From positions 3,658,001-3,722,000 of the forward strand of contig NZ_CP054836.1 of the NCBI RefSeq assembly GCF_013358405.1: a stretch of DNA of 64,000 nt, in the 5' to 3' direction. Source of the stretch: Oricola thermophila (GTDB lineage Bacteria > Pseudomonadota > Alphaproteobacteria > Rhizobiales > Rhizobiaceae). Shown here one piece after another: positions 12,699 to 14,763 of this stretch (position 1 is the stretch's first letter; the number at the start of each line of letters is the position of its first letter). The position numbers and the translations under genes are program-made. The notes beneath the pieces were generated by a model. It was not told the origin of the DNA. It searched no databases and saw nothing but the letters and a program-made list of their open reading frames with translations.

Positions 12699-13481
12699 CT
12701 ATTGCGCGACGCTCTCGAACCGTCTGGCATGGATCCTGACCGGGCCGATCTGGGTCTGCACGACCGCCTTGACCGGTGCATAGAAACCGGTGCCCTCGAC
12801 CGGCGCGAACGAGACGTAGATGCGGCCCTTGTCCCGCATCCATGCGACCTCGCGCTTGCTTCGCGAATAGCCCGAAACCGGCAGGAACTTCGCCCGGCAG
12901 GTCACGGCGTCTCCCTTGTAGCCCCTGGTCGAGAAGGGAACCGTGCGCAGGTAGGAGAGCCTTATGTCGGCGCGCATCGCGCCGTCATAGACGCTGATCG
13001 TGCGGTCGCAGACCGCGCGGGGGGAGGCGGCCGGCACCAGCATGGCGCTGATCGGGTCCAGCGCGCCGGCCAGATGCGCCGCCTTCACCTCGATCCAGTC
13101 GCCCCGCTTCTTCACGCGGGGCCGGTTGACCGTGCGAGCGACGGCGCCGCGCGCGAAGGCGATCTCGGTGAACTGCCTGCTGCCGCCCGAGACATAGTCC
13201 AGCGTGAAGCGCCGCGCCGCCAGGCCGGATCCGCCGACGCGTCCGGCCGCGACGAGGCTGCCGCTCGTCGGCTGGAACAGGGCGGCGAGGCCGCGCGCCT
13301 TCAGCGTGCCCGTCAGCCGGTAGGACTTTCGCGTGATCGCGGATTCGAATTTGGAGACCCCGACGGGAAGGCCGAGCGCCGAAACGACATATTCGGCGCG
13401 GTAGAGCCGGGTTTCCGCACCGGCGGGAAAGGCGGACAGTGCCGAGAGCGCGAACGCCGTCGCCGCAACCATCATGCGCAT
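12699..13481 (-). CDS. DUF3108 domain-containing periplasmic protein
   Basis: 260 aa from MRMMVAATAFALSALSAFPA, a Sec signal peptide with cleavage likely after PAGA (about residue 22); the frame extends 32 codons upstream without signal character. The mature part begins TRLYRAEYVVSALGLPVG, typical of DUF3108, a beta-rich periplasmic fold. Function unknown. It is divergent from rpmB, an arrangement often seen in rhizobia. Confidence 0.82.
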   Translation of the reverse strand: MRMMVAATAFALSALSAFPAGAETRLYRAEYVVSALGLPVGVSKFESAITRKSYRLTGTLKARGLAALFQPTSGSLVAAGRVGGSGLAARRFTLDYVSGGSRQFTEIAFARGAVARTVNRPRVKKRGDWIEVKAAHLAGALDPISAMLVPAASPRAVCDRTISVYDGAMRADIRLSYLRTVPFSTRGYKGDAVTCRAKFLPVSGYSRSKREVAWMRDKGRIYVSFAPVEGTGFYAPVKAVVQTQIGPVRIHARRFESVAQ

Positions 13482-13582
13482 GGTATGACCTCGCTTGCAG
13501 CGTCCCTTCCTCCCTGCCATCGCGCGCAATAGCGACGATTCTGTGATAAGTGCGGCAGGGCACGCAATTTCGGCCATAACGG

Positions 13583-13611
13583 TTGACGAAAATGTCCCCA
13601 GTCACTATAGG
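13583..13611 (+). promoter_or_regulatory. Probable sigma-70 promoter of rpmB
   Basis: TTGACG (13583-13588) and TATAGG (13606-13611) are separated by 17 nt, close to the vegetative consensus. Transcription would start near 13618, giving a 5' leader of about 105 nt before rpmB. Seen directly; not tested. Confidence 0.55.
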
Positions 13612-13723
13612 ACGCTGACTTTTCCGCGAGAACCGCAATTGTCCGTTGACGACGCCCGGGCGGGCGCGACTGGAAATTGCGTTGGATTTGCGGAACGAGA
13701 AACCGAATTCGAAGGTGATGATC

Positions 13724-14029
13724 ATGTCTCGCGCATGCGAACTGACCGGCAAGTCTGTCCAGTCCGGAAACAATGTGAGCCACGCCAACAACAAGACCCG
13801 GCGCCGGTTCCTTCCCAATCTCTGCCACGTCACGCTGATGTCGGAGACGATGGGCCAGAGCTACCGTTTCCGCATTTCCGCGGCGGCGCTGCGCACCGTC
13901 GAGCATCGCGGCGGCCTCGACGCCTTCCTCGCCAAGGCGAAGGACAACGAGCTGTCGCAGCGCGCTCGCCTGCTGAAGCGCCAGATTGCCAAGAAGGCTG
14001 CCGAGAAGGCAGCAGACCAGGCCGCCTGA
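13724..14029 (+). CDS. rpmB: 50S ribosomal protein L28
   Basis: 101 aa from [10 protein letters not shown], preceded by GAAGGTGAT. Length and C-terminal extension are typical of the alphaproteobacterial L28. Conserved phrases are [20 protein letters not shown] and [15 protein letters not shown]. The last 30 residues are rich in Lys and Ala. Single gene flanked by a clear promoter and a strong terminator. Confidence 0.96.
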
Positions 14030-14059
14030 TTACGGGCGCCGACTGACGGCACTGCATCG

Positions 14060-14085
14060 ACAGGCCGGTTCGCCGGCCTGTTTTC
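14060..14085 (+). terminator. Rho-independent terminator of rpmB
   Basis: Perfect 9-bp stem ACAGGCCGG / CCGGCCTGT around a TTCG tetraloop, followed directly by TTTT. It lies 31 nt after the rpmB stop and separates rpmB from the yhhQ leader. Confidence 0.85.
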
Positions 14086-14095
14086 GTTCCTCTTG

Positions 14096-14126
14096 CTGGT
14101 GGCATCACCCAGGATAAAAAAATGCG
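14096..14126 (+). promoter_or_regulatory. Candidate preQ1-I riboswitch in the yhhQ leader
   Basis: The 31-nt element fits an H-type pseudoknot. P1 is CTGG (14096-14099) with CCAG (14109-14112). Loop 1 holds GCAT (14102-14105), complementary to ATGC (14122-14125), which includes the start codon. The tail between P1 and that segment is GATAAAAAA, like the A-rich tail of Bacillus preQ1-I aptamers. A cytosine (14108) precedes the 3' strand of P1, where preQ1-I aptamers bind ligand. The Shine-Dalgarno AGGA (14111-14114) overlaps P1. The downstream gene imports queuosine precursors, a known preQ1 target. P1 is only 4 bp, so a covariance check is needed. Confidence 0.55.
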
Positions 14127-14763
14127 CGATACACGTACCTTTCTTCCCTTCATCGTCGCGATGTGCGCGGTCGTCGCCGCATCGAACTGGCTCGTCCAGT
14201 TTCCGGTCCGGGCAACGTTCGGCGGCATCGATCTCGCCGACATCCTGACCTGGGGCGCGTTCACCTATCCGGCCGCCTTTCTCGTCACCGACCTGACCAA
14301 CCGCCGCTTCGGTCCTGCCGCGGCACGCGGTGTCGTCGTGGCCGGTTTCGTGCTGGCCGTCGTGCTCTCGGTATGGCTGGCCAGCCCGCGCATCGCGGTT
14401 GCCTCCGGCTCCGCCTTTCTCGTCGCCCAGATGCTTGATGTGGCGGTCTTCGAGAAGCTGCGTCGCCAGGCGTGGTGGAAAGCGCCGCTGGTTTCGTCGC
14501 TGTTCGGTTCCGTGATCGACACCGTGCTGTTCTTCGGCATTGCCTTCTCGGCACGCATGGCCTTCATCGATGCCGGGTTCGGCATGGAGGACAGTTCGCT
14601 CGCCTTCCCGGTTCCCTTCCTCGGGATCGGTGTCGAGGTGCCGCTTTGGGTGTCGCTGGCGGCCGGCGATTTCTGCGTGAAGATCCTGGTCGCGGTCGTC
14701 CTGCTCGCGCCCTACCGGGTGCTTCGCGCTTTCATCGCCGACAGGTCCGCCGTGCCGGCCTGA
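14122..14763 (+). CDS. yhhQ: Queuosine precursor transporter (YhhQ/VUT family)
   Basis: 213 aa with about six membrane helices. NWLVQFP, LTWGAFTYPAAFLVTDLTNR and the later phrase APLVSSLFGSVIDTVLFF are hallmarks of COG1738, the vitamin-uptake-like family that imports preQ0/preQ1 or queuine for tRNA queuosine synthesis. The ATG is 8 nt after AGGA. The leader carries a candidate preQ1 riboswitch, which would repress translation when precursor is plentiful. Monocistronic as far as can be seen, converging on the phytase-esterase-like gene. Confidence 0.9.
   Translation: MRDTRTFLPFIVAMCAVVAASNWLVQFPVRATFGGIDLADILTWGAFTYPAAFLVTDLTNRRFGPAAARGVVVAGFVLAVVLSVWLASPRIAVASGSAFLVAQMLDVAVFEKLRRQAWWKAPLVSSLFGSVIDTVLFFGIAFSARMAFIDAGFGMEDSSLAFPVPFLGIGVEVPLWVSLAAGDFCVKILVAVVLLAPYRVLRAFIADRSAVPA

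Follow-up and report, generated by a model that had tools for sequence, protein, structure and literature searches.

A probable preQ1 riboswitch with the yhhQ start codon in its pseudoknot, in Oricola thermophila and its family

The start codon of the queuosine-precursor transporter gene yhhQ in the window (the whole 64,000-nucleotide stretch of Oricola thermophila DNA that was analysed) belongs to a compact element that is most probably a translational preQ1 riboswitch, a class I H-type pseudoknot that comes closest to type III and in which the start codon itself serves as the 3' strand of P2. This reading, to which a probability of roughly 0.84 is assigned, is based in this analysis on position, conservation, covariation and match to a solved switch, while the identity of the ligand, the direction of regulation (off with preQ1) and the base contacts are proposed by analogy. 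It further seems fairly likely that both the aptamer pocket and the pseudoknot are built on the initiator codon, so that the base before the AUG touches the ligand, the AUG and the first base of codon 2 make up P2, and the sensor constrains the second amino acid. Within one family, by the same proposal, the P2 strand alternates between the start codon, with the Shine-Dalgarno sequence kept in P1, and the Shine-Dalgarno sequence, with the start moved downstream; the platform would have been interchanged and the aptamer left unchanged. If these proposals hold, one of the smallest kinds of riboswitch would extend to a large bacterial family in which the present Rfam scans gave no match, and a platform would have been swapped from masking of the Shine-Dalgarno sequence to masking of the start codon with the compensatory changes still visible. 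The constraint on codon 2 that they predict is testable by simple reporter mutants.

The element and its gene

The 30 nucleotides at 14096-14125 of the forward strand, read directly, are CTGG TGGCATCAC CCAG GATAAAAAA ATGC, and an H-type pseudoknot of P1, P2 and a 9-nucleotide A-rich linker can form within them (Table 1). The preliminary description had proposed this fold from the bare sequence, with P1 as CTGG/CCAG, P2 as GCAT/ATGC including the start codon, a cytosine just before the 3' strand of P1 and an AGGA overlapping P1, and on all four points it agrees with the letters at the coordinates it gave. The cytosine, which is the specificity base, is 14108; the ATG spans 14122-14124 and is followed by C14125; and the AGGA, half of it in P1, is the sole obvious Shine-Dalgarno sequence of yhhQ. 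The gene directly 3' had also been named correctly as a queuosine-precursor transporter, the open reading frame coding for 213 amino acids and scoring 94.9 bits against TIGR00697 (cut-off 50.95), with a further match to PF02592 (Vut_1). That the AUG is the start site is borne out in relatives as well. A search of related genomes with the sequence pattern gave 165 matches, comprising 113 distinct full reading frames (170-330 amino acids, read to the stop), 35 without a stop, one of odd length (L084) and otherwise duplicates, and the AUG of the element opens yhhQ in 112 of the 113.

Table 1. Parts of the element and the gene it precedes, in positions of the window
Feature	Position	Strand	Basis or remark
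P1 5' strand, CTGG	14096..14099	+	All cells paired across 43 aligned variants; one pair changes from UA to CG in 1 of 43
Aptamer loop, TGGCATCAC, 9 nt	14100..14108	+	T at the first and C at the last position never vary in alignment A3
P2 5' strand, GCAT, within the loop	14102..14105	+	Covaries with the AUG/AGG and +4 positions
P1 3' strand, CCAG	14109..14112	+	Sequence; alignment of variants
Shine-Dalgarno AGGA, half within P1, 7 nt 5' of the ATG	14111..14114	+	Sequence
A-rich L3 linker, GATAAAAAA	14113..14121	+	Sequence; alignment A3
P2 3' strand, ATGC: yhhQ start codon and first base of codon 2	14122..14125	+	Covariation
yhhQ/QPTR queuosine-precursor transporter gene	14122..14763	+	TIGR00697, PF02592

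A descriptor drawn up post hoc (a 4-bp P1, a loop of 8-10 nucleotides ending in C, a linker of 8-10 nucleotides ending in AAAAA and a 4-bp P2) has a single match in the window, against two in 60 dinucleotide shuffles, and the sequence pattern with at most three mismatches occurs once in the window and in none of 100 shuffles. The folding energy of the 30-mer, computed from nested pairs only, is ordinary and no better than that of shuffles (z -0.86); the support for the element is comparative. Folding energy was dropped as evidence, the forms of the element ranging from z -0.86 to -0.03 and the leader of E. coli reaching +0.77. Among relatives, conservation drops abruptly at the edge of the element: most of its columns reach 2 bits, whereas the six that immediately precede P1 have 0.26-0.61 and those further upstream less than 0.3, in a profile of 105 rows that were picked by the motif and are hence conserved partly by construction.

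Covariation of P2 with the start codon

Covariation among yhhQ leaders, to which the preliminary description had looked for support of its two helices, is found in P2 at two places, between loop base 8 and the +4 position and between loop base 10 and AGG or AUG. For the first of these, 116 rows were compared, one per distinct protein; L231 was first removed from the 113 because its AUG is out of frame, and L084, L231, L232 and L236 were then entered with a downstream start. Loop G7G8 goes with C at +4 in 49 of 49 rows and loop G7C8 with G in 10 of 10, and the 57 rows with loop U7C8 have A (32), C (17) or T (8) at this position and never G. Fisher tests of loop class against the +4 base give 1.6e-11 and 4.0e-12, values that ignore kinship. 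Because the search expression fixed the CAU of the loop and the AUG that follows the A-run, mismatches within the family cannot show there; it placed no demand on loop bases 7 and 8, on the linker or on +4. Since G does follow the ATG elsewhere in the window (A 18, G 18, C 16 and T 5, a rough count over ATGs preceded by a Shine-Dalgarno sequence and opening frames of at least 120 codons), its absence in the U7C8 class is not a general habit.

On a quick tree of the YhhQ proteins, parsimony requires 12 changes of loop class, and two to three per class are forced by branches with good support. Independent pairs across such branches number three per class, too few for significance alone; the G7C8 pairs are as expected in three of three and the G7G8 pairs in a mean of 2.6, the remainder showing no difference and none going against. 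In alignment A3, which has 43 rows (the 49 rows of A2 minus L024, L070, L072, L090, L100 and L108, removed mostly for register shifts), 92.4% of cells are paired compared with 90.4% in shuffles, and the covariation score exceeds that of all 500 shuffles and of the slid controls. Further pair types are fewer in A3 than in the shuffles, 499 of 500 of which are at least as high. The pair between loop base 8 and +4 is open in 26 of the 43 rows, all of them of the U7 (U7C8) class.

The ten rows of the G7C8 class all show CCAU together with AUGG, the last G of which was not demanded by the search expression. Five of them, with the linker CCAGGAU, keep the AUG in frame with yhhQ; in the other five, whose linkers are CCAGC, the Shine-Dalgarno sequence in P1 is lost. 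Four of these (L084, L231, L232 and L236) retain both CCAU and AUGG although the AUG lies out of frame, and in them yhhQ can start 7-8 nucleotides 3' of a GGA or GGAG whose first base falls within AUGG; for L084 the start would be the second of two ATGs in frame. In L235, which has a CCAGC linker, the AUG is in frame with a GTG 10 nucleotides downstream. Judging from these sequences, AUGGA(G) could act as the Shine-Dalgarno sequence in the five C8 relatives that lack the copy in P1. The AUG seems not to be kept only as a start codon, since CCAU and AUGG are retained where it is out of frame.

Relation to known preQ1-I switches and to more distant leaders

Type III of the preQ1-I class was reportedly defined by McCown et al. 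in 2014. PMC11625349 counts 293 sequences, almost exclusively from Pseudomonadota, and has the switch occlude AAGG; PMC10622847 places the type almost exclusively in gamma-proteobacteria and gives its P1 three highly conserved G-C pairs. The yhhQ leader of E. coli, TTGGG TTCCCTCAC CCCAA followed by AAAAAGG, matches the type III switch of known structure (PDB 8fza; PMC10622847). In that report, U11-A28, C10-G29 and C9-G30 pair, U7 takes part in a U7-A27-preQ1 triple, C8, A28 and U11 form a second triple, and the A before the specificity base is a proposed gatekeeper. The window element has in common with it the gene family, the H-type pseudoknot, a 9-nucleotide loop, the specificity C, the A before P2 and the poly-A before P2, and alignment places T14100 on U6, A14107 on A13, C14108 on the specificity base C14 and A14121 on A27. 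The two differ in the partner of P2, which is AGG, the Shine-Dalgarno sequence, in E. coli but AUG, the start codon, in the window. P1 has five base pairs in E. coli and four in the window element, where the Shine-Dalgarno sequence is shifted into P1 and L3, and the window form has GG at loop bases 7-8 and a fourth P2 pair that reaches into codon 2.

The U7C8-class loop of the family, UUCCAUCAC, differs from that of E. coli, UUCCCUCAC, by a single base, C10 to A, and the change from AGG to AUG restores the P2 pair. A pattern that allowed A or C at loop base 10 and A, G or T at the tail base was run across the phylum and matched 59 of 398 genomes. Among the 53 places with yhhQ just 3', C10 stands with AGG in 43 and A10 with AUG in 10, and there is no mismatch; four of the six matches without yhhQ break the pair. 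The AGG follows a longer A-run in 4 of the 43, and the ten A10-AUG places all come from the window's family. In the gamma-proteobacterial leaders the AGG lies about 6-9 nucleotides 5' of the start codon, as expected for a Shine-Dalgarno sequence; in the window's family the AUG is the start codon.

The window copy has a G in place of the conserved second loop U of type III and another at loop base 8, so that its loop reads UGG where the U7C8 class (57 of 116 rows) keeps UU. Base 8 of this form could pair with +4 in place of the C8-A28-U11 triple, and since no U7C8 loop occurs with G at +4, the two ceilings may exclude one another. The A before the specificity C is present in the window and replaced by T or C in several relatives, the C itself being invariant. 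Further traits of type III found here are the AC before the 3' strand of P1, AAAAAA before the AUG, yhhQ as the gene 3', and, of the highly conserved G-C pairs of P1, two next to the loop in the aligned variants. The partner of P2 is AUGC at the start codon and not AAGG, and the UU or pyrimidine-rich loop is absent from the window form, so the element is filed as a variant related to type III and not as a member. The name preQ1-I that was first given to it is supported and also refined: type III is the closest relative, and the window copy departs from the consensus of that type in the partner of P2 as well as at loop bases 7 and 8.

Type II switches, represented by those of T. tengcongensis and B. 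subtilis, also have AC before the 3' strand of P1, readout by a C and an A-rich L3, but P2 takes only the first two Shine-Dalgarno bases in the former and feeds a transcriptional platform in the latter, and the sections consulted of PMC10622847 and PMC11625349 describe no start codon in P2. Other riboswitches, such as the add adenine switch, have also been drawn with a hidden AUG. In the literature searched, which took in passages of PMC10907184, PMC12519234 and PMC11570991 and few subscription papers, no preQ1 switch is described that places the start codon in P2 or that comes from this family. The kind is thus known; by these sources, the variant in which P2 takes in the start codon is new.

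Comparison with the Rfam PreQ1 model (RF00522), which had been suggested as a check, gave no preQ1 match, the window element and six loci of the family falling below the gathering score. This outcome is uninformative because Rfam also misses the crystallised type III switch of E. coli, and the model was dropped as a judge. Rfam 15 gave no preQ1 match on the type III leader of E. coli K-12 (L031) at E up to 10, nor, at gathering scores, on 19 type III-like yhhQ leaders of gamma-proteobacteria (L182-L200). The missing type III leaders are apparently a gap in the Rfam library.

Covariation in P1, the other helix for which it had been sought, is present but weaker than in P2. Within the family P1 is CTGG/CCAG throughout except for CCGG/CCGG in a single genome, Candidatus Tokpelaia RhiAcro1 (L158; Hyphomicrobiales), and GG/CC stands next to the loop in 43 of 43 aligned variants, with 100% of P1 cells paired. 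The outer pairs vary among gamma-proteobacterial leaders (TTG/CAA, ATG/CAT, GCG/CGC, GAG/CTC), and CAGG/CCTG is found in Clostridia. When named genomes were scanned for variants of P1, 28 stretches came up, one of them (L158) before yhhQ and three clostridial with the loop TGCCATNAC; the remaining 24, chance-like or lacking an assignment, were set aside.

The three clostridial stretches, which come from this one pattern scan with mostly chance matches, consist of CAGG TGCCATNAC CCTG and then an A-run (L149 5448-5475, L166 1110-1137, L169 167-194 (minus strand)). AUGG follows the linker directly in L166 and L169; L149 has AUGA as its nearest tail, with AUGG 9 nucleotides further on. The gene is queT (PF06177), of a different queuosine-precursor transporter family, in L149 and L166, and is truncated where the stretch ends in L169. 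These leaders resemble the window element in the 4-bp P1, the A-rich linker and the loop, but differ in the sequence of P1, in a GGAGG-type Shine-Dalgarno sequence that overlaps or follows and in a start codon that lies downstream and is not that of the AUGG. None of the three loci has an Rfam match at gathering score.

Distribution, host pathway and competing explanations

The element is a real, family-wide RNA element, the family presumably being the broad Rhizobiaceae of GTDB. Among 61 relatives, own genome included, 49 have yhhQ, and among the 30 loci returned the element stands in 23 of 23 from the family and 0 of 7 from other families; two more other-family yhhQ leaders (L127, L129) are likewise without it. 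Model R1, built from the 23 elements of the family, matches 261 of 297 genomes of the family, once per genome except in G294, where each of two yhhQ paralogues (L033, L260) is preceded by its own copy. A follow-up sample took 52 of the weaker R1 matches, those whose best E was no lower than 2.1e-9, together with 20 of the 36 non-matching genomes; yhhQ is present in 52 of 52 and 12 of 20 respectively, and 56 of the 64 leaders carry the element, including four that R1 had missed (L084, L107, L108, L119). Located via yhhQ, 82 of 90 leaders of the family carry it, the 90 being made up of the 23, the 64 (one genome common to both) and four more, with the 64 picked for a weak or absent R1 match. The wider model R2, from 43 variants, matches 12 of 297 genomes in a sample of the order, all of the same family, and 1 of 289 in a sample of the class, the window's own. 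The scans of family, order and class used stricter filters that lose weak copies, as with the four real ones in the family. A search of plasmids gave no match.

Upstream of the yhhQ element lies rpmB (ribosomal protein L28). A hairpin at 14059-14082, ending 13 nucleotides 5' of P1 and extended by a T-rich stretch to 14088 (fold z -3.89), is possibly the rpmB terminator; a consensus scan of 13400-14200 listed neither a terminator nor a promoter. Either yhhQ would be transcribed by read-through from rpmB or it would have a very short leader. Of the 89 yhhQ loci tested (L001-L090 minus L031), none longer than about 3.7 kb, 88 also contain a match to L28, as do 6 of 7 yhhQ loci from the sampled families without the element, so that this gene order seems to predate the switch there.

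The genes for TGT and QueA are adjacent in the host genome (contig C1 1417555-1419716). Its match to QueF is below threshold (21.6 bits, cut-off 27.3) and those to QueC are marginal (21.5 bits, 22.6 with neighbours; cut-off 22), where clear members of either family score about 100 bits or more in the same searches. With the first two enzymes present and the latter two sub-threshold or marginal, the host probably lives by preQ1 salvage only and depends on imported preQ1, and feedback on the importer would fit such dependence.

By analogy with the solved switch, the AGGA and the AUG would be open in the absence of preQ1 and the transporter would be made; the loop may instead form a nested GGUG/CACC hairpin. 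Abundant preQ1 would stack on the top G-C pair of P1, pair with C14108 and contact U14100 and A14121, thereby locking GCAU onto AUGC, burying the AUG and half of the Shine-Dalgarno sequence and stopping import. P2 would comprise A14122-U14105, U14123-A14104 and G14124-C14103 together with the fourth pair C14125-G14102. Roles mapped from E. coli would make G14099 the floor of the pocket and A14107 its ceiling, with U14100 as the contact to N9, C14108 as the Watson-Crick readout and A14121 as the minor-groove contact.

It is unlikely that the same pseudoknot has as its natural ligand another queuosine precursor, such as preQ0 or queuine, or several of them. Members of the YhhQ family do import preQ0 and, in some species, queuine, according to published work, and the window form alters two loop bases near the pocket. 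The element nevertheless keeps the specificity C, the U that opens the loop and the A that precedes P2, preQ0 is probably unusable in a genome whose QueF match is sub-threshold, and the E. coli type III switch strongly favours preQ1 over preQ0 according to PMC10622847. Less probable still is a conserved initiation region with no ligand at all, in which a strong ribosome-binding site and an autonomous repressive hairpin would be held by codon and Shine-Dalgarno constraint only. Such a region would account for a Shine-Dalgarno sequence and start codon inside the element and for the ordinary energy of nested folding, but would leave unexplained the loop bases that change with the +4 base, the AUGG that stands out of frame where the Shine-Dalgarno sequence of P1 is lost, the exchange of C10-AGG for A10-AUG relative to the crystallised riboswitch and the occurrence of the same loop before clostridial queT. 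A leader site for a protein or small RNA, tied for example to the neighbouring rpmB and thus not a metabolite aptamer, is hardly credible: the near-constant presence of rpmB is shared by loci of families without the element, a similar element precedes queT in Clostridia, and the second yhhQ of G294 has a copy of its own.

An intact copy of the putative preQ1 switch is missing, on inspection by eye, from 8 of the 90 yhhQ leaders of the family. The idea that its loss tracks loss of the pathway was rejected as not clean, since G009, G085 and G110 keep yhhQ, TGT and QueA with no element. Leaders L094 and L102 carry what appear to be decayed remnants of the element; their genomes, which belong to the same genus and are small at 1.1 and 1.5 Mb, still have yhhQ.
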